A stretch of 64,000 bases of DNA. It comes from a virus. This document shows positions 1,908 through 61,758 of the stretch, piece after piece. The translations under genes were made by a program, and so were the position numbers. The stretch lies in IMG/VR virus record IMGVR_UViG_3300009149_007629, positions 1 to 64,000 of that record; one strand, 5' to 3'. Positions within the stretch are counted from its first letter, which is position 1. The number at the start of each line of letters is the position of its first letter. The notes beneath the pieces are model-generated. The model did not search any database. It saw nothing but the letters and a program-made list of their open reading frames with translations, and was not told the DNA's origin.

Positions 1908-2780
1908 CTAATCTAACGATTTAATCTTTAGCTTAAATGTCACCATACACAAAAACTTTTCCGGATGAAGTAAATACTCCTTATAATGCGCTATCGGTAT
2001 CTCCTCATCTTCTCCCTTCCCAATAACTTTCAGAATCTCTTCATCCCCATACTTTTCTAAAACAAGCTGACCCTTATGAGCATACTCTATAGGCCCCTCA
2101 TCTTCCGGAGCTCCTGTATCTACATTTTTAGAAACATTAGACCCGTCACTTAGCCCGGGCCCCATCTGCTTCTCTACTCCTTTTATAATCGTAGGGATAT
2201 CCCGGGGAGGACTATCCTTCTCCATGATGTAATCTACAACATCTTTTATTACATCCTCATCATCTATCTTGCGGATCTTATCCCAATGAGCATCATTAAT
2301 TTTAGACTCAGAGGGCCCTTTAGCAAGCTCCTCTTTAACAATATCGGGCATCTTATTAAAATCAGCTGATAAATTATAGATTCTCTTCAACCGATGAGGA
2401 GTAATACCCAAGATAGATGCTATCTTACCATCCTTCTTACCCATGGCATTTAATTTTAGCGCAGACCGGTTTAAATCCATAGGACTTAAATCTTCACGCT
2501 GCTGATTTTCTAGTAAAGAAAGTATAACCGCTTCTTCATCCTTAATATCATCCCGGATCTGATAATACTCTGGTAGCACCGCTGCTTCTGGCCCATGAAT
2601 TTCCAGCAGCGCCCGATACCTCCTGCTTCCTGCTATAATCTCATAGCATTTACCACAAGTACGAAGTACCATCCTATTCATCAAACTATGCTCTTTTATA
2701 GATGATATCAGATTTTCATAACTACTATTATCATTCTGACGAGCATTACATTTAGATATTATCAAATCTTTATACTGCAT
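1908..2780 (-). CDS. ParB/Spo0J-like DNA-binding protein
   Basis: A 290-residue protein with the ParB layout. An N-terminal ParB/sulfiredoxin-fold region carries GSRRYRAL (51-58), matching the GERRYRA box, and ENQQREDLSP (91-100), matching the second conserved ParB box. A helix-turn-helix follows at about 115-137 (GKKDGKIASILGITPHRLKRI). AGGAG precedes the ATG. Known for the family: ParB proteins bind centromere-like parS sites and work with ParA in partition; phage relatives can also act as regulators. The C-terminal ~100 residues are acidic and unfamiliar. No ParA ATPase gene and no obvious parS palindrome are visible, so partition is not established. The fold is well supported; the role (partition, transcription control or replication) is open. 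It follows the ligase by 11 bp and probably shares its transcript. Confidence 0.8.
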   Translation of the reverse strand: MQYKDLIISKCNARQNDNSSYENLISSIKEHSLMNRMVLRTCGKCYEIIAGSRRYRALLEIHGPEAAVLPEYYQIRDDIKDEEAVILSLLENQQREDLSPMDLNRSALKLNAMGKKDGKIASILGITPHRLKRIYNLSADFNKMPDIVKEELAKGPSESKINDAHWDKIRKIDDEDVIKDVVDYIMEKDSPPRDIPTIIKGVEKQMGPGLSDGSNVSKNVDTGAPEDEGPIEYAHKGQLVLEKYGDEEILKVIGKGEDEEIPIAHYKEYLLHPEKFLCMVTFKLKIKSLD

Positions 2781-12560: not shown

Positions 12561-15242
12561 CTAAGAAAAAACTTTAGAGTATAAGGCGTCTATGTCGCTT
12601 TCACTATCCTCAAAAAGAAGCTCATCTTCCCCAAACTCTATAGCTCCATGAGCTATATCACCCATTACATCATTTATTAAACTTTTTTTCTTTTCCAAAA
12701 TTTTTAAAACATGCTCATCTATAGTCTCTTTTGTAACTAGATGCACTAAATAAATGTGCTTGTATATACTACCTATACGCTGTGCTCTTCCTATCGTTTG
12801 ATACAGGTCACCATAAGACCAAGGAGTATCATAGAATAGGATTACATTAGCTGACTGAAGATTTATAGCTGCAGACCCCGCATATGTAATGAAGATCACA
12901 TTTACATCATCATCAAAATCCTGAAACCTTAACTTATTTTTATTTCTATCCGCTGAAGAAACATCCCCCGTGATCTTAACATGACTCATCTCAAGATCAT
13001 CCAGGATCTTCTCTAATATCGGTATACCTGATTTAAACCTCGTAAATAATATAACCTTCTCATTTGATAGCTCGTACTCGAAAAGCCGCCTAAATTCATC
13101 CTCCTTAGCACTAACACCCTCCTCATTTACCCATGAGGGGCCATTAGACACTAATTGACAGTAAGACAGAGCAGCTATCTTACTGTTTGCTACACCCTCT
13201 TCTGTTAATGAATTGTCATATGCTATTTGAAGCTTTTCATATTTAACGAGATCACTCTCTTTAGGGTTCTTTTGTGATGCCAGCTTCTCTTTTAACTCAA
13301 AATAACGGGTCCTTAATAATCTTCGATACAAATCCCCCGAAAGAGCTTCTTTATAAAGCTTTCTCTGAGCAGTAGTCATTTCTACTACAACTTTTTTAGA
13401 TATTAGGGAGGGGAGATCTTTTGCCACATCCCTTGTTTTACGTATTAAGAAGAAAGGGTCTATTACACGCTTAAATTCCTTTAGATCCTTGTACCCTACG
13501 ACTTCATTGAAGCGGATCTTCTTCTTTGACCCCTTCTTTCTAAGCTCATGCTTCTTCCTAATTGTATACTTAGCTAAAAATTTGTTCTTACCTCCCAAAA
13601 GACCCGGGACGATCACTTTATAGATGTAATATGCCTCTTCTAGCCTGTTTTTTATTACTGTAGCGCTTAAACCGTATACTCTATGGGCTCTGTTTGCAAT
13701 TTCATCCGCTCCCATATGCTTTAATGTTCTGTGGTTTTTGATTTCCTGACATTCATCTATTATAAAAGTGAACTTTGGATATCTATTCTCTATTAAGAAG
13801 GTGTAATCCTCCTGTATTGCATAGTAATTAACTATTAAAACATTTGCATCTACTGTCTCATATTGAGCTTTTCGAGCTTTATACCCATGTACACGTCTAA
13901 AAGGGATCTCTTTTTCAATAAGATCCTCTACAAGGCCATACCCTAAGCCATCTTTTCTTTCCCCATAAACAGTTTGAAGTACATGTGTTGTAATACCTAC
14001 TGTAAACTTATCGAATTCTTCCGCCCACTGATCCATAGCAGACTTAGGACATACTATAAGAAGCTTTAATTCCGGGTCCTTCTGAAGACAAAAGGAGTAC
14101 GAAGCAATATTTTGAAGGGTGTTATGGTTAATGAACCCGTTACCAACAAAATTATGACCATCAGGTACATGAAAATCAAAAAAGTCACACCTAACATTCT
14201 TAATCTCTACAACTTTTTCCAATTTTGTAGATTGAATATCTCTTAATACGCGGCCCTCGTATAGATCATATAAAGTTTGGGTATCTCTTACTTCTAATTT
14301 ATAGCTAGACACTACCGAATTTACCCCTAAAGTCCTAAGTAGCATCTGTAAAGACTGGAGATATGGTTTATAGCGAGTTTCAAATACTATTGAGCCTCCC
14401 CCGGGCTTTGGTACCCCTATTACTCCCTTTACATAAGCTATTATTACCTGTTTTGGGCTTCTAAAAATCTGATCAGGTACTATATAACCCTGGATATCCG
14501 TGTGTATCTTAAAATTTAATGATTTCTTAATAACATCCATTGATATCTTTGCATTTTTATACACTTTATTAAGGTATATAAAAAGATATGTGTAAAAACT
14601 ATCTGAATATTCTGAGTTATTGTTATTAAGAAAGAAATATTTGTAGATGCCTAAAGAGTATGCAAATTTTTCATCTATCCGAAGAACTATATCCCCATTT
14701 ATCTCTAAAGGGACCTCTTGGATCTCTGTAGGAAAAACATACCCTCCAGTTTTTATCTGAACTTGATCCCCTACTGTGAGATCTTGTAACTTTCTGTAGA
14801 TACCACTCTTTTCCAGCACTGGGTGATGAGGAAGGCCTTTAATCCGGTACCCTGATTCAGTAATCACCTCTAAACCTTTAGAGGATCCACTAAAATAGAT
14901 ATGAGAAGCTTTCTTATACCCACCCTCCCCCAGCACCTCAACACCATCTAAGGCATGTAAAGTATCTGGGATCCTAATATCTGATTTATAGAAATGCTTT
15001 ATGGGAAAAATGCCCTTAGAAGTAGGAATTAACGTATCTTCTGATACGCATTTTCCAAGCCCTGCGCTATCTCCGAGGATCATCCTACTTAGGCATATTA
15101 GATGCAGGCAACCTACTACTTGATAACCACGTAGTTTTGTAGACTCTTTTAAGTATTTGCAGCTCTTTAATACAGGCTCTTTTTTACCTTCCCGTAATTC
15201 TTTTAGAAAAGGATAATTAGAGGGTGTGTCTGAGAAACCCAT
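12561..15242 (-). CDS. SNF2-family helicase/ATPase interrupted by an intein
   Basis: An 893-residue precursor. The extein residues (1-64 plus 375-893, ~583 aa) form an SF2/SNF2 enzyme: P-loop GDSAGLGK (57-64) completed by T375 after splicing; motif Ia LLIVCPKSAMDQW (394-406); motif II IIDECQEIK (DECQ, 496-499); motif III YGLSAT; motif V VNLQSANVILFYDTPW; motif VI QTIGRAQRIG. Residues 65-374 are an intein placed between K64 and T375 of the Walker A motif, so ATPase activity requires splicing. Family members move along or remodel nucleoprotein; in phages they often help recombination or replication restart. The gene starts the replication block, behind a 227-bp control region, with AAGGTG before the ATG. 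Confident on family; substrate unknown. Confidence 0.93.
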   Translation of the reverse strand: MGFSDTPSNYPFLKELREGKKEPVLKSCKYLKESTKLRGYQVVGCLHLICLSRMILGDSAGLGKCVSEDTLIPTSKGIFPIKHFYKSDIRIPDTLHALDGVEVLGEGGYKKASHIYFSGSSKGLEVITESGYRIKGLPHHPVLEKSGIYRKLQDLTVGDQVQIKTGGYVFPTEIQEVPLEINGDIVLRIDEKFAYSLGIYKYFFLNNNNSEYSDSFYTYLFIYLNKVYKNAKISMDVIKKSLNFKIHTDIQGYIVPDQIFRSPKQVIIAYVKGVIGVPKPGGGSIVFETRYKPYLQSLQMLLRTLGVNSVVSSYKLEVRDTQTLYDLYEGRVLRDIQSTKLEKVVEIKNVRCDFFDFHVPDGHNFVGNGFINHNTLQNIASYSFCLQKDPELKLLIVCPKSAMDQWAEEFDKFTVGITTHVLQTVYGERKDGLGYGLVEDLIEKEIPFRRVHGYKARKAQYETVDANVLIVNYYAIQEDYTFLIENRYPKFTFIIDECQEIKNHRTLKHMGADEIANRAHRVYGLSATVIKNRLEEAYYIYKVIVPGLLGGKNKFLAKYTIRKKHELRKKGSKKKIRFNEVVGYKDLKEFKRVIDPFFLIRKTRDVAKDLPSLISKKVVVEMTTAQRKLYKEALSGDLYRRLLRTRYFELKEKLASQKNPKESDLVKYEKLQIAYDNSLTEEGVANSKIAALSYCQLVSNGPSWVNEEGVSAKEDEFRRLFEYELSNEKVILFTRFKSGIPILEKILDDLEMSHVKITGDVSSADRNKNKLRFQDFDDDVNVIFITYAGSAAINLQSANVILFYDTPWSYGDLYQTIGRAQRIGSIYKHIYLVHLVTKETIDEHVLKILEKKKSLINDVMGDIAHGAIEFGEDELLFEDSESDIDALYSKVFS
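14121..15050 (-). other. Intein (310 residues) within the SNF2 helicase P-loop
   Basis: Residues 65-374 of the helicase precursor. Splice features: Cys1 at the N-terminus (CVSEDTLIPTSKG), a block B equivalent GLPHHPVLE (usual TPxH with Leu in place of Thr and the His kept), block F-like FFDFHVPDGHNFVGNGF, and C-terminal INHN with the penultimate His and final Asn, followed by extein Thr375. Between them (~190-320) lies a LAGLIDADG-type region: YSLGIYKYFF and YVKGVIGVPKPGGG sit where the acidic LAGLIDADG motifs belong, followed by LQSLQMLLRTLGVNS as in these endonucleases. The catalytic acids are missing, so the homing nuclease is probably dead while splicing residues persist. Coordinates are set by the Cys codon (15048-15050) and Asn codon (14121-14123). 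Confidence 0.9.
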
Positions 15243-52063: not shown

Positions 52064-52285
52064 TTATCTTTTATTCCTGTTCTCAAAGGTTGAGACCTCT
52101 TTACTCATAAGACGGCTTATCTTCGTACACAAAAAAGAAAGCTCTTTCTGTAAAAAACCCATGGGCCTAGGATCGTCTCGCTTAATAACTCTCCATACAG
52201 GCGCTACTCCACATCCCCTATTATTTCGGTGTCCTGCTGATTCTTCTCTATCTGATCCTGAAGTGCCTTGACTCTCTGATCGCAT
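52064..52285 (-). CDS. Small uncertain ORF overlapping the giant gene
   Basis: A frame from ATG 52283-52285 gives 73 residues, but its first ~27 residues lie in another frame of the giant gene and look compositionally odd. An internal ATG at 52160-52162 would give 32 residues (MGFLQKELSFLCTKISRLM...) that lie almost wholly outside that gene. No good Shine-Dalgarno is seen for either. The 140 bases between the giant gene and the FN3 gene otherwise hold nothing that I recognise. Translation is doubtful, though the shorter form is helical and plausible. Confidence 0.3.
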   Translation of the reverse strand: MRSESQGTSGSDREESAGHRNNRGCGVAPVWRVIKRDDPRPMGFLQKELSFLCTKISRLMSKEVSTFENRNKR

Positions 52286-55200
52286 CCGAACTCCCTATGA
52301 AATTTCATGTATAACCAGAAATATTTATTCTGTATTATAGCCTCATTTTCAATACTCTCTTTTATTTGATTATATCTAACATTCCTAATAAAATTAAGAA
52401 AATTATCAAAATCTAAACCATAAGGATTATCCTCACTATAATTTTGAGGAGTATAATAATCAGGCACTACAATACCAAACTCGTTTTTCCAAGGCTGGGC
52501 AAGCCTATTTTTTATCCAGTTTAATTGGGTGTGCAGGTTATAATCAGACACCTGTATAAATTTCATTTCCCCCAAAACACCAAAGTAAACCTTCCACGGG
52601 GTATTATAAGGTAGCACCTTTTCTACTACTGATGCTAGTGTCCCATAATAAACCCCTCCAACTTTCATAGGTAAAACATTGCTGCCTAAAAACCCAGTTT
52701 TATAATTTCCTAGTAATGTATCATCTATCCACGAATACAAGTTTTTATTACTGGTTTGTGCTATTGTTAAATTATTCGAATTTAAAACGATATTGTCCGT
52801 GTCTACTGTCACAGAAGTCTCATTACTCATATTCAGCAAACGCAGCCCTACTAAATACCCAAGGTAGCTACTTATAAAGGCTCCTCCAGAAAAACTCCCG
52901 CTAGAATCTTGGAGATATGATGCTGGACGATCTGCATAAAAAGAATTTACTAGATTACTTCTAAACAACGGAGGAAACACAGGATCTGCTAAATCTGTGA
53001 TCGATCCTATGTAATTAACTAAAGACCCTATAGACATACTGCTATAACTAAAGCTATTTAAGGTGTACGTGCTCTGATACACTATCTTACATTTCAAAGT
53101 AAGACTCTTCCTGTCCGCTGAGATCTCATATGTGGCATCACTGATCTCATATACCGCCCCAGTAAGACTCCGTACCTTTAGTCTCATTGCGGTATTATTC
53201 CCGGTAATATCTAAATCTATGTATGAATCAGATATTGCTGTCTCAGGAGTCACAGACAAGAGCTCTGTAGACAGCGTTGTACCATAGCTTCCTACAACCT
53301 GAGCCTGGAAGACCGACAGAGAAAACTCCGGTGCGACACCAGAATTAATGCCATCTACTAACTGCTGTATGGTTGTATTCGCGGGAGATAAGAAGTTATA
53401 ACCAAAAGTATATTGATAATCATACTCATAATCACAAGTAATTGTTATAGACTTCGTACCGCTATCGGTGCTATAATTAGATGAAGTGAACCGATAATCT
53501 CTTCCAGGCCTTATTGCCATTACATTTGCATCTGCTAAATTAAAATCTACTATCTCTGACTTGTCTTCTATAGTCTGTTTGTAATTAGGCAGATAGTTAT
53601 ATTCAAACTGACCCGCTTTATTAGGACTTGTACGTGTAAATATTAAATTAGCATAAAAGTATTTATTTAGCAGACTGTTCCCATTTATTCTCTCTACTAA
53701 AGAAAGTAAGTACTCCCCCTCAGGGGCCTGATTATGCCCTGAGCCAGCCAAAGGTATCCCATACCCCAGGGTCTTGTCAGGCTGACCGTAATCCGCAGCG
53801 CTGGTATAAAAAACATTTGCACTCTTAAAGTATATCCAATTATCCTTTACCTGGACATACCTATCGCCATTTGTATCTTTTTCATCCCAGCAGAAAACAT
53901 CAAAGGGTGTTATATCTGTCCTATAACCCTGGGGTATTGCTGTCAACGTTTTTTCCTGCGCTGTCTTCGGGTCATCCATATTAAAGGAGTAATTAGGCCC
54001 GTAACTATATCTTTTTGAATCCATTACTATTGTAAAAGGATCATCCTTCTTAAGATCAGTAGATATTAAGCTCCAGCCTATAAATTGATCTGATTTAAAA
54101 GTAGAGCTACCGTTTTCTCCCACTACTTCGTAAGAACGTATTACGGGGGTATATTCAGAAAAAATCTCATAACTTTTATATTCCCCCTGCACTTCTGGGT
54201 CCCCTATAAGAGACGCTTCCCATATCTGACGCTCTCCTAAAGGAGTCTGAGTCCCCTCTGCATCAAACCGAGCAGCATTTATAGCTGAGACTAGATCATT
54301 TATAGTAGCTTCTTTTCTAAGATTAATTCGGAGCTCCAGAGGGACCTTATCTGTTCTTTCTTTTCTTAATACTAACTCCTTAAGAATAGTAATTTCGGGC
54401 TTATCAAGATATAGTAGAGACTGTAACTGCGCCTGCTGTTCTGCAGTTATATATCCATTTTTATCTATGTCTTCTAGGATAGCCGGAGGCGGATCAAAAT
54501 ATTTAGAATCCCCCGCAGTAGAGTATCCCGTATAAGTTATCTCCCATGCAGCATCATCTATACAATTGAGGAGTACTACAGGATCTCCTGTGGAACTATC
54601 CCAACTACCTGACACTGGGATACCCTCTATGGCTGTCTTATTGGTGTTCCCGTTTGCAGTATACATAGGAAAACTGAAATAAGCATTCTGTACATTTGTA
54701 GTATCTCGCTTATTATCAGAGTCAAAATTAGAAGTATCTAGGTAAATATCCGAATACAGTATTTCAGGATTGTTAGCTGGTAGCGGGTAATACTCATTAT
54801 CTGCTACCATATACCGTGTAGATAAATCCCCTAAAGGATCCTCCTGGTACACAACTTCCATATTAAATAAATTGTCCTGCTTATATACAAAGGAATTTAT
54901 AATTTCAGAAAATTCAGAAATTGTATAAAACTCATCGTTATCCTTCTGCATATCAAATACAAAAGAAGTGGAGATCCCATCATTATCCTCTACTATATAT
55001 CGACCATCTTGTATAATAGCTCCAAAGATAACTTCCATCTTCCTATGTGTATCACCATCAACAAAAACTTTGTACCGGCCCTGATTTAGATCTTCATCAG
55101 TATTATCGAAAGTGGTATCTAAATGAGCATATAAATCTATTATATATGCTGATTCTGAACGCTCATATTTAGCTTTCACGAAATCTTCATTAACATAGAA

Positions 55201-58200
55201 AGAAGAGGTAGATAAACTCTCGTCATAAATCGATTCTGATTTAAAGAGCTTTTCCCCCAATATCTCGTAATTATTTATATCATCAACTAGATCCTTAACA
55301 GTTATGTACTCTTCTAAAGCATCGTTATATAATGAAAAAGCCACCAATATAGGGGTATATTGCCCTATTTCATTTCTAAGGTCGCTTCTTTCTGTCGCCT
55401 CTAAATACCCACCCTTAAGAACAAGTATCTTCTTAAGATTCTCATCAAAATGAACATAGTACTGAGGATTCTGGATAATCCTAACCACAGACCCTGCTTG
55501 ATACTCAGTATCTGCTGTTATCCTTATAACAGGAGTATCTGGCTTCATTGTGTAGAAGTTACCTAAGTAACTAAGCTCCAGTGTCGATTTTTCACGACCA
55601 TCCTGTGTATAAATTCTATCTTCAATATTTTTGTTTAAAAAGAGTATCCTTGAATCCGCTTCTAAATGATCCGCAACATTTGTAACTTGTAATATTAAGC
55701 CTGTTGAGGAAGAACCCGTAAAGGTCCCTTCAAGCATATCCTTAGTAACTTTATTTTCAAAATTCCCAAAAGAATTTGTGGCATTGAATATAGCAGCTCC
55801 GTTATATCTGTAACTATTAATATCTGATACTACAGAATCTAACTTTTTATATACTACAGTCTCTACTCCTCCGTATATCTTTATATCATATAAGGGGGTG
55901 GTATACGTTATGGATTGTCCAGAAACAATAAAGTCTATCTTAATCAGTTTACCCTTAAGGTCTGAATATACCGAAACAGTTGAGGACGTTATGGGAGAAA
56001 GAAAGGTAATGGAGATAGCATCTAATTTATATAGACCTACATCTAGTACTCCGACATTCTCGGTGTACATCTTTTTAGCATCCTCTTGATAGATAAGACC
56101 CTCTTCAAGGCTCGTGGCCCATCTTACGTAATCTTTTCTCCAAGTAACATTATTAGTGTTATTTATATTATAGTAAAGTAAGGACCGCTCATAAAAACCT
56201 TTATAGATATTGTAAGCTTCTAAAGTCTGTTCAAAGCTTTTTTTAATGGCAGGCGTAGCATCATCCTCATAATTTACACCATCTGGTTTTAATACCCTCA
56301 TCAGAGGGCCATTATCACTTATAAGAAACCGGAGCTCTGGTAAAGATGCTAGTATACGGCTATACATAATATCCGAGATACCATTTTCTGTACCACCTAT
56401 AGGTTTTGACAGAAGATTTTGGAAGATACTAAAAACTTTATTCAACCGACCCTGTTCAAATGCCCGGGCCAATTTATCACCATGGTCATAGAGATCCTTT
56501 AAGATCATCTCTTCTGTCTGCCACCCCTGTTTCTCCAACAATAACTTTCTATACAAGCATTCTGGATCATAGAAGTTCTTATACTCTAAGTATTCTGTAT
56601 ACCCATAATCTTCTACAGTGTTATTAGAGGATCCATTCTTTACCCTAAACCACCAATCACGATCTTTAGCTCTTATCCGTATAGAATCGTAATATCCTGT
56701 AGACTCATCCTTATCATAGTTTTTATCGAAGGATAAATTGAAATAACGAAAAAACCCTTTTTTAGGATCTTCTTTTATGTCATAGAATATGATAGGGTCC
56801 GTTAAAGTAGGGATCTCATATTTTACAGTAAAATCAAATCGAAGGGCATCTAGGACATCATCTACATTACGCTCCTCTTTATTACTCAGCTTACTTAAAT
56901 CTATTGACCCAAGAGATTTCCAATCAGACTCCGGATCTTTTTTTACTTCAATTTCAAAATTTTTAACGGGCTCGCCCGTAAATAAAGAAATAAAAAAATT
57001 AGAGGGTTTGTTGATCCTTCTTGTATCAATTACCTGCCCAGGTATCTTATCCCCCACAGAGGAAGCTACCAAACTATGAGAATCATCAAACATCGGAAAA
57101 GATTCAGACTGCTGCCTTTTTATCCACACATAGTACCCTGTAGCAGAGAAGCTGTCTACCAAAGTATCAAAAGTAAGATCTACCCCATATTTATCTTTAA
57201 AAGCTGAGCCATGGGAGCTCTGAAGGCTCTTCAAATCATAATCAGTGATGCCCTTAACTTTAAAACCACCTGTTATCTTTATATATTCATATTCTTTATC
57301 TTTAGGAGATACGATGCTATTAACATTATAGTATGTTTTTGAGGCATCAAGTCTAACAGAATCCCCTACATTTATTCTTTTTAAAAAGGTATACTCATCA
57401 CTAGTGAATGTCCGATCTTTTAATGGTATCGGCTGTGTATATTCTCCAACAAGAGTATCCTCTATGTAGTCATCTTTAATGTAGTCATCTTTAATGCATA
57501 CAAAATCGATATCTGATTTTCGTGCCCAATAAGGTTTTGATGCCTTTATAATACCTACAGTAACAGGCGTATTATCATTCCCTATATAGGTGATATTGCA
57601 GCAGTATACTTCCCCTGACTCTTTGTACTCATTAGAAAACCTATCATAATAATCAGGAGCAGTACGATTGTATCCTACCGGAAAGAACTGAGAGAATTGA
57701 TTTTCAATCTGATCAATATCGTCCTGTGTAGTTAGCGTATAATCCTGATCTTCTACGACGCTATCATTTAATGTGTAGCTGCTTCCTACTTTCCCTACTG
57801 CATTACTATGCGCGAATTTAAACCCAACAGAAAGCTGCAGCTCAGAGCTGAAACCTCTTAACCTCTGTTTATACCAATCAAAAAATCTAAGGTATAGCTG
57901 CTTCTTTATTCTCTCATCAACAAGTTTATAGTTATCATCTGATACTCCACCTTCATAAGGAGGAGTGTCGGGTGAGGATGGGCTAGTATCTACTCCTACG
58001 CCTCCTCCAGACCCCTTCTGCTCCTGTATCTGATCTATCTGAGGTATTACCACGATCTCAGAGAACTGCCTCTCAGTAAGCTTCTGGAGGTAAAACTGAT
58101 CAATATTTATATAGTCTAAAGACACATCTACTTTATAACCTACAGGAATGCTGGCATAATATCGACAACTAGCTGTGATAGATTCTCCAATACTATCTAC

Positions 58201-61200
58201 AAGGCTGTCCTGGCCCATATAATTAAGACTGAATCTATCGAGACCTCTAATACCCTCAGCAAGAACTATCTCTCCTGTAGTAATAGAATAATCAGTATCT
58301 ACTTCTAATCTCCTCTTATTTATATTGGACCCTAGATCTCTCCATTCATCTAGGGGCAGGGCCTCTCTCGTATATTTAATATAACCAGAATAGTTCTCAT
58401 CCCTTATCGCGGGATTAAGTGTGGGAGTAAACTTCAGAATAAAAAATTCTGAAGTCTGTCCAATATCTAAAACTTTATAGATATATTTATCTTCTATTTT
58501 AAATACAGTATCTAGGAGAATATCTGAAGGTTTCTGACCTAAAAATTTTATAGTAGATGCCTCAGGGTCTACCTCTACTACGGTGCTATCTAATACCAGG
58601 TAATCTTCTACTCTATTTGTATAGGTTACAGGACCATCCATACCTACTACAAAAGTATCTTTTATCTTAACTAAAGTATTTTCGTTGAAAGAGCTCTCCA
58701 GCACTTCATGATAATACACTGTATTGTAGTCTTTGTCTGCAAAAGCTACTAGAGTATTTTCCTTAAATTTATCCGTTGCATCATAATTTTCTACATCAAA
58801 ATATGAGGCATCTTTTTCCATCTTAAGAATGGACCACTTAAAAAGCTCGGGACTTACTGTAAGAGTATACGGTAGATCGACCTGGTCGGAGACTTCAAAA
58901 GGTATTATTAAATCAGCACTCCAATCCCCACCGGGCAACACATAGGTTGTGCTAAAAGGCTTATACTCTGGGACACCCTCTACTACCGTTATATTATCAT
59001 TATAGGTAGATTTAATCTCCTTTATAGCATCAGACAACCCTTTTACTGTAGTATAGCCAGAAAAAAGAACTTCATAAGGTTCCGGGTTCTGTACACCTGA
59101 TATTGATTCATATAACTGGATCCTATCCGGAAGAACCAATATTTTACCTTCTCCTTCAAAACCTGTAGGAGATTTATAAGCCACGGAAAAAGCAGGTTCC
59201 TCTGGATCTAATAATATAGGATAAGAGGCATTAAGTACTGTCGTACCTTCTTCTGCTACTGGATACGGAGTATACTCTATTGTATCCTGTATCTGCTTAT
59301 TAAGTGTAGGGAAGATCCCTAATACTACTGCATTCTCCCCTGCTATAGCTACAGAAGTCACAGAATAAATATCCTGCATATCTGCCTGAAGAAGGGTATT
59401 TACCCGTATCTTGTTTATTATCCCATTAACATCATTTGTGTAAAGAAGTATCGCTTCAGAACCCTCCAAAGCTTCTTTATCTACTAAAGACCCTTCGGGT
59501 AACGATGACCACTCTATTGAATCATCTAACAGATAAAAATTAGGATTGAATACCGCATTATCAAATTCCCCGTAGATAGATATATACGTATCACCGTTGA
59601 GGTAGGTTGCATCCTTAATACGATAATAATAAGTTTCTTCCGGATCAAAATTATCTATTCTTAATACAGACTCTTTTTTTAATACATCAGTCCTATCAAA
59701 ACCCTCTATCTTAAAACTAGATGCCCCATCTTCTATCCTTAGATATGTAACAACTACCGGGGCATAAGGGAGACCTTCCGATTGGAAATCATATGTAGCT
59801 AATACAGTATCTTCACTATCTACCCTATTCTCATTAACGTCATCATCTAAAAGTACTTCTCTTATTACATCAGTATATGTATATCCATCTGTTATATACT
59901 TTTCCTCTGGACGTTCCCTAACATATACATTTGATAGTGTCCCATCAATAATAGTCCCATCAAAAGTATATTTACCGTCATCCCCATTCTTAAGAAATGG
60001 ATTTTCCTTTGGTATTGATACCCGAGGGTTATTTACAGTAAAAACAAGACTCTTACCATCTGTAACTGTTAAGATATCATCTATAATTTTCATCCTATAA
60101 ATAAGAGCATTCCCGGAGGTAGGCCGTAATACACAATTTATAGATGCTAGAGGAGTGTAGGATACCTGAAGAGATATTGTACTCTCCTCCGAAGACTCAT
60201 TTAGTACTAACTTCCCTGTTAAATAAGATATAGTAAAATCTGTACCTTCTATTAGTACCCGACTATCTGTGAAGATCTCTCCCTCTGTTTCTATTTCATA
60301 TTTTTTGAGGATTGATACTGATTCTTCTAGTATCGGGTACTGCTTTGTTCTTAGTACTTGTGGGTATATAGTCTCATCTACAACATCATCGCCCTCTACG
60401 TAATAAGATGCCAGAAAAACATCTGTACTCTTAGGAGATTTGGAAAACGCTAACGCCCCTGATTCTGTCTCGAGGATATAATCGATATCTCTTATTAAAT
60501 TATTACTATCTGTATCTTCAAAATAAACTGGATAATCTATATCGTATACGCCTTCTACTGGAGGCACTACCAAATTATCAATATCTATTACTTCATCTTC
60601 CTTAACACCTTTTATAAGACTGATGCCGTCCCAGATTAACCTTTTAGGATACGCGATGACATTAACCAGGTTCTCTTCATTCTGGTGCTTTATAAAATTT
60701 ACCTGACCTGTGACTTCATTTAAAAGATAATCCTGATTATTAGATTTTTCTTTACCCCCTACTGTAATAGAATCTGATCCAGGAGTAATATTCTGTACAG
60801 GCCTCTCAACATCTTCTTTATCCTTAGATATTAAAGCTATCTGACCGTCAAAATCAGTACCCACTGCTTCTACCTGGATCTCATTATCTAACTCACCCAA
60901 AAACTTTATAAAGGCTACTTTGCGTTCTTCGTATGGCGGGTAAGGGAATTTAAGTGTAGGATCCTGACTATAATTTATAACATAATCTACAAATTCCTCT
61001 TTAAGCTCGGGCTCTTCTCCTAATTTCCCCCAGTACACTCTTAAACTTTCATGCGGGTATGGTATCGGGCTTACAGATAGGTCAAAGATCTCTGTAGTAT
61101 TCCCATCTACTAGTGTCTTATAAGTAGTATTTACTGTCATCAAATCTGCTGCGCTACTTATGGAACTCTTCTGAAACTGTATGTCTAAATTAGGATCAAA

Positions 61201-61758
61201 TTCAAATTTTTCTGTAGGAGCTATCTCAGGGCCCTCGGGTTGGATACCCGTATATGCCCAGGTACTTTTCTCATCATCATAGGATATAATATTTTCGTCA
61301 TTATGACTTTTTATGTACTCATACTTTACACTATCAAGTTGGATTTTTCTGACAGTAGATGGACCCTCTTGTACATCTGGATCTTCTTCATTCTCTTTTT
61401 TATAATCAGTTGTAAGGTAGATATTATTTCCCTGCATACCTGTTACAGTATAAAACTGATAATCAGTATCTAATCTTATCCTATCAGAGTAAGAAACATC
61501 CTGTGATCCAGTATAGCCTCTTACAACAGCACTACCCTCTGTAAATATCCCATAGCTCTTAAGATCATTTGCAGATAAAGAGGATTGTATCAGGTAGTCT
61601 GCACTAAGACCGGTTTCACCCGTCTTAACGCCCTGCTCACCGCTGCCATTTACTATAATGGTATTAGTCGTTGGAGCATTCCTAAGCCCTACTCTAACAC
61701 CTCTTGCAACAGTATCTTCTAAATAGATCGACTTTAAGTTAAATACTTCTGATGCCAT
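52204..61758 (-). CDS. Giant virion structural protein (3184 aa)
   Basis: The largest gene in the window. The N-terminal part (to ~600) has repeated beta modules of the pattern D-Y-x6-T-G-x-hydrophobic: QDYLLNEVTGQVNF (~343), DYILETESGALAF (~426), TDFTISYLTGKLVL (~507) and later DYSITTGEIVL (~1210). The remainder is beta-rich with helical zones (ERIKKQLYLRFFDWYKQRLRG, ~1325) and a C-terminal coiled-coil tail (~3130-3184, QRVKALQDQIEKNQQDTE). There are no enzyme motifs, signal peptide or membrane segment. It starts the main run after the 205-residue gene and uses an ATG at 61756-61758. Probably a central baseplate or tail-tip scaffold. Exact identity is unknown. Confidence 0.75.
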   Translation of the reverse strand: MASEVFNLKSIYLEDTVARGVRVGLRNAPTTNTIIVNGSGEQGVKTGETGLSADYLIQSSLSANDLKSYGIFTEGSAVVRGYTGSQDVSYSDRIRLDTDYQFYTVTGMQGNNIYLTTDYKKENEEDPDVQEGPSTVRKIQLDSVKYEYIKSHNDENIISYDDEKSTWAYTGIQPEGPEIAPTEKFEFDPNLDIQFQKSSISSAADLMTVNTTYKTLVDGNTTEIFDLSVSPIPYPHESLRVYWGKLGEEPELKEEFVDYVINYSQDPTLKFPYPPYEERKVAFIKFLGELDNEIQVEAVGTDFDGQIALISKDKEDVERPVQNITPGSDSITVGGKEKSNNQDYLLNEVTGQVNFIKHQNEENLVNVIAYPKRLIWDGISLIKGVKEDEVIDIDNLVVPPVEGVYDIDYPVYFEDTDSNNLIRDIDYILETESGALAFSKSPKSTDVFLASYYVEGDDVVDETIYPQVLRTKQYPILEESVSILKKYEIETEGEIFTDSRVLIEGTDFTISYLTGKLVLNESSEESTISLQVSYTPLASINCVLRPTSGNALIYRMKIIDDILTVTDGKSLVFTVNNPRVSIPKENPFLKNGDDGKYTFDGTIIDGTLSNVYVRERPEEKYITDGYTYTDVIREVLLDDDVNENRVDSEDTVLATYDFQSEGLPYAPVVVTYLRIEDGASSFKIEGFDRTDVLKKESVLRIDNFDPEETYYYRIKDATYLNGDTYISIYGEFDNAVFNPNFYLLDDSIEWSSLPEGSLVDKEALEGSEAILLYTNDVNGIINKIRVNTLLQADMQDIYSVTSVAIAGENAVVLGIFPTLNKQIQDTIEYTPYPVAEEGTTVLNASYPILLDPEEPAFSVAYKSPTGFEGEGKILVLPDRIQLYESISGVQNPEPYEVLFSGYTTVKGLSDAIKEIKSTYNDNITVVEGVPEYKPFSTTYVLPGGDWSADLIIPFEVSDQVDLPYTLTVSPELFKWSILKMEKDASYFDVENYDATDKFKENTLVAFADKDYNTVYYHEVLESSFNENTLVKIKDTFVVGMDGPVTYTNRVEDYLVLDSTVVEVDPEASTIKFLGQKPSDILLDTVFKIEDKYIYKVLDIGQTSEFFILKFTPTLNPAIRDENYSGYIKYTREALPLDEWRDLGSNINKRRLEVDTDYSITTGEIVLAEGIRGLDRFSLNYMGQDSLVDSIGESITASCRYYASIPVGYKVDVSLDYINIDQFYLQKLTERQFSEIVVIPQIDQIQEQKGSGGGVGVDTSPSSPDTPPYEGGVSDDNYKLVDERIKKQLYLRFFDWYKQRLRGFSSELQLSVGFKFAHSNAVGKVGSSYTLNDSVVEDQDYTLTTQDDIDQIENQFSQFFPVGYNRTAPDYYDRFSNEYKESGEVYCCNITYIGNDNTPVTVGIIKASKPYWARKSDIDFVCIKDDYIKDDYIEDTLVGEYTQPIPLKDRTFTSDEYTFLKRINVGDSVRLDASKTYYNVNSIVSPKDKEYEYIKITGGFKVKGITDYDLKSLQSSHGSAFKDKYGVDLTFDTLVDSFSATGYYVWIKRQQSESFPMFDDSHSLVASSVGDKIPGQVIDTRRINKPSNFFISLFTGEPVKNFEIEVKKDPESDWKSLGSIDLSKLSNKEERNVDDVLDALRFDFTVKYEIPTLTDPIIFYDIKEDPKKGFFRYFNLSFDKNYDKDESTGYYDSIRIRAKDRDWWFRVKNGSSNNTVEDYGYTEYLEYKNFYDPECLYRKLLLEKQGWQTEEMILKDLYDHGDKLARAFEQGRLNKVFSIFQNLLSKPIGGTENGISDIMYSRILASLPELRFLISDNGPLMRVLKPDGVNYEDDATPAIKKSFEQTLEAYNIYKGFYERSLLYYNINNTNNVTWRKDYVRWATSLEEGLIYQEDAKKMYTENVGVLDVGLYKLDAISITFLSPITSSTVSVYSDLKGKLIKIDFIVSGQSITYTTPLYDIKIYGGVETVVYKKLDSVVSDINSYRYNGAAIFNATNSFGNFENKVTKDMLEGTFTGSSSTGLILQVTNVADHLEADSRILFLNKNIEDRIYTQDGREKSTLELSYLGNFYTMKPDTPVIRITADTEYQAGSVVRIIQNPQYYVHFDENLKKILVLKGGYLEATERSDLRNEIGQYTPILVAFSLYNDALEEYITVKDLVDDINNYEILGEKLFKSESIYDESLSTSSFYVNEDFVKAKYERSESAYIIDLYAHLDTTFDNTDEDLNQGRYKVFVDGDTHRKMEVIFGAIIQDGRYIVEDNDGISTSFVFDMQKDNDEFYTISEFSEIINSFVYKQDNLFNMEVVYQEDPLGDLSTRYMVADNEYYPLPANNPEILYSDIYLDTSNFDSDNKRDTTNVQNAYFSFPMYTANGNTNKTAIEGIPVSGSWDSSTGDPVVLLNCIDDAAWEITYTGYSTAGDSKYFDPPPAILEDIDKNGYITAEQQAQLQSLLYLDKPEITILKELVLRKERTDKVPLELRINLRKEATINDLVSAINAARFDAEGTQTPLGERQIWEASLIGDPEVQGEYKSYEIFSEYTPVIRSYEVVGENGSSTFKSDQFIGWSLISTDLKKDDPFTIVMDSKRYSYGPNYSFNMDDPKTAQEKTLTAIPQGYRTDITPFDVFCWDEKDTNGDRYVQVKDNWIYFKSANVFYTSAADYGQPDKTLGYGIPLAGSGHNQAPEGEYLLSLVERINGNSLLNKYFYANLIFTRTSPNKAGQFEYNYLPNYKQTIEDKSEIVDFNLADANVMAIRPGRDYRFTSSNYSTDSGTKSITITCDYEYDYQYTFGYNFLSPANTTIQQLVDGINSGVAPEFSLSVFQAQVVGSYGTTLSTELLSVTPETAISDSYIDLDITGNNTAMRLKVRSLTGAVYEISDATYEISADRKSLTLKCKIVYQSTYTLNSFSYSSMSIGSLVNYIGSITDLADPVFPPLFRSNLVNSFYADRPASYLQDSSGSFSGGAFISSYLGYLVGLRLLNMSNETSVTVDTDNIVLNSNNLTIAQTSNKNLYSWIDDTLLGNYKTGFLGSNVLPMKVGGVYYGTLASVVEKVLPYNTPWKVYFGVLGEMKFIQVSDYNLHTQLNWIKNRLAQPWKNEFGIVVPDYYTPQNYSEDNPYGLDFDNFLNFIRNVRYNQIKESIENEAIIQNKYFWLYMKFHREFGCDQRVKALQDQIEKNQQDTEIIGDVE
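57466..57495 (-). repeat. 15-base tandem repeat in the giant gene
   Basis: Two exact adjacent copies of a 15-base unit, in frame, encoding KDDYI twice (KDDYIKDDYIED). A simple slippage or duplication product that lengthens an acidic loop without changing frame. Confidence 0.7.

Follow-up and report, generated by a model that had tools for sequence, protein, structure and literature searches.

Insertion between the Lys and Thr of a Walker A motif is the classic P-loop location for an intein; the intein of phage terminase TerL1-a sits between these invariant residues (PMC5050341), and the Pho RadA intein likewise occupies a Walker A motif. Conditional splicing has been shown for the P-loop inteins Pho RadA and mycobacterial DnaBi1 (PMC5790916, PMC6195587). 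Over the homing cycle, the nuclease of an intein decays after fixation and splicing is kept (PMC1654191). In PhoVMA, the acids of both LAGLIDADG helices are lost and block E is truncated, and splicing is retained even with the nuclease deleted (PMC8966425). For helicases of the SNF2/Rad54 type, splicing of the Deinococcus radiodurans Snf2 intein was shown by Southworth and Perler 2002, as cited in PMC11219805, and Brace et al. 2010, as cited in PMC5222942 and PMC7765530, describe this intein in their title as class 3.

Here we analyzed a P-loop intein within an SNF2-family helicase gene on a 64,000-nt stretch of viral DNA (hereafter the window), which is a portion of an IMG/VR virus record of 69,177 bases (Table 1). 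PhoVMA (PDB 7qst) is a close published precedent: like the window intein, it has lost both LAGLIDADG acids and kept its splicing domain, and its fold matches our model over 271 residues (Z 23.1, rmsd 4.8). It differs in its host gene (VMA) and organism, and in that splicing and cutting were assayed directly, whereas the window intein is known from its sequence and a model. TerL1-a and Pho RadA share the Walker A location but belong to other host proteins, with conditional splicing shown for RadA. The D. radiodurans intein shares the type of host helicase but, on the cited description, is class 3, whereas the window family is class 1 with Cys1, a comparison made by class. The closest relative that we found, L109 (IMG/VR 3300008516_000085), carries a P-loop intein with the same insertion site, the same block B Leu and a shared DFHVP in block F, within a helicase ~60% identical to that of the window over matched columns. 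Unlike the window intein, it is 461 aa long with its LAGLIDADG acids intact, and the L109 helicase bears a second intein in motif II.

Table 1. Coordinates of the helicase gene and its intein in the window
Feature	Position	Strand	Evidence or remark
SNF2-family helicase gene	12561..15242	-	Pfam, PHROG 62, intein-free homologues
N-extein, residues 1-64, Walker A ...GLGK at its end	15051..15242	-	Alignment to intein-free homologues
P-loop intein (site a), ORF residues 65-374, 310 aa, Cys1 ... His309-Asn310	14121..15050	-	Pfam Intein_splicing, AF2 model, PDB match
N-terminal splicing half, intein residues ~1-116, blocks A and B, His76, Leu73	14703..15050	-	Alignments, pLDDT
Decayed LAGLIDADG nuclease remnant, intein residues ~117-276	14223..14702	-	L109 alignment, Pfam, pLDDT
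C-terminal splicing half, intein residues ~277-310, blocks F and G, DFHVPDGHNFVGNGFINHN	14121..14222	-	L109 alignment, pLDDT
C-extein, residues 375-893, Thr+1 (Walker A Thr) first	12564..14120	-	Stop codon 12561-12563

An intein in the Walker A motif of a phage helicase

The helicase ORF encodes an 893-aa precursor that shrinks to 583 aa, with an intact GLGKT Walker A motif, when the intein is taken out. Both the N- and C-terminal helicase domains of the SNF2 family were matched (SNF2-rel_dom, PF00176, 3.3e-27; Helicase_C, PF00271, 1.1e-16) along with Intein_splicing, and PHROG 62, DNA helicase, was matched at 5.9e-80. Genes for an NAD-dependent DNA ligase, a DNA polymerase, a primase-like protein and a DnaB-like helicase lie nearby on the same strand and likely form a replication block. 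A ParB-like protein (window 1908..2780, minus strand; PHROG 3264 at 2.2e-14) adjoins these replication genes, and the minus strand also carries a very long ORF (3184 aa) at window 52204..61758. The window yielded no tRNA genes, and a search with the Pfam splicing profile found no second intein in the window's record.

Alignment to intein-free homologues placed the insert precisely between GLGK and T, splitting Lys64 from Thr375 exactly where the first-pass annotation, made from the sequence alone, had put it. On its own, the insert matched Pfam Intein_splicing (PF14890) at 1.7e-11 (44.6 bits; cut-off 35.8). The splice residues reported earlier as kept (Cys1, block B His76, His309-Asn310 and Thr+1) are all present, together with block F Asp292 and His299; an alignment of 35 inteins shows no variation at Cys1, His76 or the terminal His-Asn. 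The open frame is not a product of chance, as 5000 shuffles of the 930 bp yielded a mean of 24 in-frame stops and 0 open frames. A Hint splicing domain with its nucleophile and assisting residues makes this a class 1 intein. Class 3 membership was rejected, given Val78, Asp292 and Asn308 at the positions where that class needs Trp B:12, Cys F:4 and Thr G:5 (PMC5222942), as was classification as a mini-intein (~130-200 aa, nuclease fully deleted), given a length of 310 aa that includes a ~160-aa nuclease remnant.

An AF2 model of the intein (mean pLDDT 87.3, pTM 0.86) is confident for the splicing half, with values mostly 96-98 up to residue 100 and 96-98 again from residue 281; pLDDT in the nuclease remnant ranges over 55-93 by block of ten, and much of its 160 aa is still modelled as folded. 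The TliVMA intein is the top structural match in the PDB, with Z 25.3 and rmsd 4.4 A over 297 aligned residues, Mxe GyrA matches over 139 residues at 1.6 A (Z 21.1), and the best PDB match by sequence is Pho RadA (E 0.003). Judged from residues and model, the window intein most likely still splices. An intein that no longer splices, leaving a dead helicase gene, would fit the loss of the block B Thr and the long branch on which it sits in its tree; this is very unlikely, however, with the splicing nucleophiles and assisting residues all intact, the splicing half modelled confidently as a Hint fold, the whole 893-aa frame open and the helicase motifs downstream of the intein conserved. Walker A chemistry and the precedent of RadA, as cited in PMC6195587, give sound reason to expect that helicase activity would depend strictly on splicing.

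Decay of the nuclease region

The window and L109 inteins share 32% identity in a pairwise alignment. Compared part by part, they are 62% identical in the C-terminal splicing part (34 residues) and 25% identical in the nuclease part. Relative to L109, the window intein is missing VSEGHCPR (8 residues, block C) after residue 136, EGD (3 residues, block E) after residue 211, and, after residue 275, another 118 residues from the C-terminal part of the nuclease. Both LAGLIDADG catalytic acid positions thus fall in in-frame gaps and not at substituted residues; the gaps recurred in separate alignments, although the placement of the small deletions depends on aligning a poorly conserved region. Profile searches agreed, with no LAGLIDADG Pfam match to the window intein at E up to 1 and LAGLIDADG_3 found in 33 of 35 relatives.

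The models place these gaps in a structural context. In the AF2 model of L109, both LAGLIDADG helices end at the acids (helix 228-242, for instance, terminates at catalytic Asp242), and two strands follow the first helix; in the model of the window intein, helix 200-211 stops directly ahead of the missing EGD, and the strands behind the first helix are gone. Neither the helix-end acids nor the recognisable profile of an active LAGLIDADG endonuclease is present. The earlier proposals that the acidic motifs had been lost, that the splicing residues were kept and that the intein was past its mobile stage all stand; to judge from the L109 alignment, the nuclease looks to have been lost by deletion rather than substitution, and is probably inactive. 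LAGLIDADG nucleases do vary, and the remnant is modelled with helices at both LAGLIDADG positions, so one might imagine a nuclease that still cuts through unusual catalytic residues and keeps the intein mobile. With both acid positions absent, 118 C-terminal residues missing and PhoVMA inactive after a similar loss (PMC8966425), we find this hardly credible.

Armed, decayed and empty sites in one helicase family

A search with the intein alignment yielded 17 distinct SNF2 P-loop inteins, including that of the window; 13 of the 17 show both LAGLIDADG acids. The four decayed members are the window intein (310 aa), L142 (362 aa), in which GRG and EGA replace the acidic motifs, L132 (268 aa), which lacks the first LAGLIDADG motif, and the 193-aa mini-intein L103. 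Because these are scattered over the intein tree, each beside armed inteins, the four decayed independently. The window and L109 inteins are sisters (87/93) and adjoin the other 15, a placement that is moderately supported given the long branch of the window intein (2.44).

One of these losses can be read at close range. The helicase carrying the L103 mini-intein is almost the same as that of L086, and a full 449-aa intein at L086:4001-5347 corresponds to the 193 aa at L103:4001-4579, so the L103 nuclease was lost recently. Within this pair, dN/dS is 0.21 (0.13-0.35) for shared intein codons and 0.07 for the C-extein: the splicing parts remain constrained, less so than the helicase. The window intein itself is known from one copy, no near copies having been found in viral contigs, and the window and L109 are too divergent for dN/dS.

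Intein-free homologues, which the first-pass annotation had suggested seeking in related phages, were readily found. Two viral homologues have an exact empty site (L003, 62%; L004, 57%), intein-free members of the window's own clade include L007, L008, L009 and L026, and a wider search gave 77 loci, the majority without an intein at the P-loop site. Since such close helicase relatives lack it, the P-loop intein is optional. A tree built from 74 helicases (527 columns) groups the window helicase with intein-free L003 (support 98/86); over this tree, presence of the P-loop intein changes at least 12 times, a descriptive figure because the helicase set was enriched through searches with inteins. 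Three close helicases (~72-91% DNA identity across aligned pieces) capture these states: L093 has the P-loop intein, L069 has an intein in motif II and L023 has neither, and the alignments break off precisely where the inteins start and stop. The 80 best matches in cellular genomes, most of them to other proteins, included no SNF2 P-loop intein, a scope too narrow to show absence.

Intein sites in the family are seen in motifs I, II and VI. In motif II (DE/C, the slash marking the insertion point), a second, different intein of ~360-375 aa is present in L016, L066, L069, L087, L090, L091, L094, L109 and L132, and several helicases carry both this and the P-loop intein. A third, of ~355 aa, occupies motif VI (LQ/C...N/C[LI]GRM) in L097 and L142 (C-extein). 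Outside the family, two Candidatus Poribacteria MAGs (L165 and L211) contain a related intein at GPNMSGK/STYLRQ, a site resembling a MutS P-loop.

Block B leucine and conditional splicing

The first-pass annotation had also noted Leu at the block B Thr position and proposed that it might slow or condition splicing. The Leu is present (Leu73), at a position of the TxxH motif where Thr is usual and not defining: among the 35 aligned inteins there are 19 Ser, 14 Thr and 2 Leu, the last being the window intein and L109. Sce VMA1, a class 1 intein, has Asn there, and Prp8 inteins vary (PMC6805012). Since L109 has the same Leu with both acids intact, the substitution appears older than the nuclease decay; and because the nuclease motifs persist in L109, and a mobile P-loop intein would have to splice to be tolerated, the residue is best regarded as a feature of this lineage. 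We therefore rejected it as a sign of decay or regulation. Leu73 could impair splicing, but its occurrence in L109 and the variability of the Thr in the literature leave conditional splicing without specific support. Given the conditional P-loop inteins of RadA and mycobacterial DnaB, conditional splicing is a general possibility.

A stronger form of this idea is that of a domesticated intein acting as a switch: splicing would be slow or conditional, tuned by what is left of the nuclease or by the Leu in block B, and active helicase would form under certain conditions only. The P-loop location shared with RadA and DnaBi1, the rank of Pho RadA as top PDB sequence match and the extent of folded remnant would all suit such a role, and it has been suggested that inteins without a nuclease must persist for some other reason (PMC6195587). 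We nevertheless regard it as unlikely: the Leu accompanies intact nuclease motifs in L109, close helicase relatives manage without the intein, many apparently armed inteins occupy the same site, and no sensor feature was identified in the window intein. Similarly doubtful is the notion that the folded, non-catalytic remnant has been retained as an element required for splicing or for its timing, making the helicase conditional on the intein; a dependence of splicing on this region has been reported for TliVMA.

Discussion

Collectively, our results are best explained, with a probability of about 90%, by a class 1 intein at the GK/T P-loop site of a phage SNF2 helicase that was formerly a mobile LAGLIDADG element, lost its nuclease through in-frame deletions, and now sits late in the homing cycle. 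During splicing, Cys1 would take over the Lys64-Cys1 bond as a thioester, which Thr+1 would then attack; cyclisation of Asn310, assisted by His309, would free the exteins to rejoin as GLGKT. The helicase could otherwise be restored solely by exact deletion of the intein or by replacement with an intein-free allele. Because inexact removal would destroy the helicase, the intein would persist, and this need for exactness would let the nuclease half decay under selection that preserves the splicing half.

Taken alone, the window intein is what the homing cycle would be expected to produce, at a stage well known for such elements. Its value lies in the setting: at one P-loop site of one phage helicase family, empty, armed, partly decayed and mini-intein states occur side by side, and the same family adds further inteins in motifs II and VI. 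This makes the family a natural series well suited to asking how homing nucleases get lost, and whether splicing comes to need the remnant that they leave behind.
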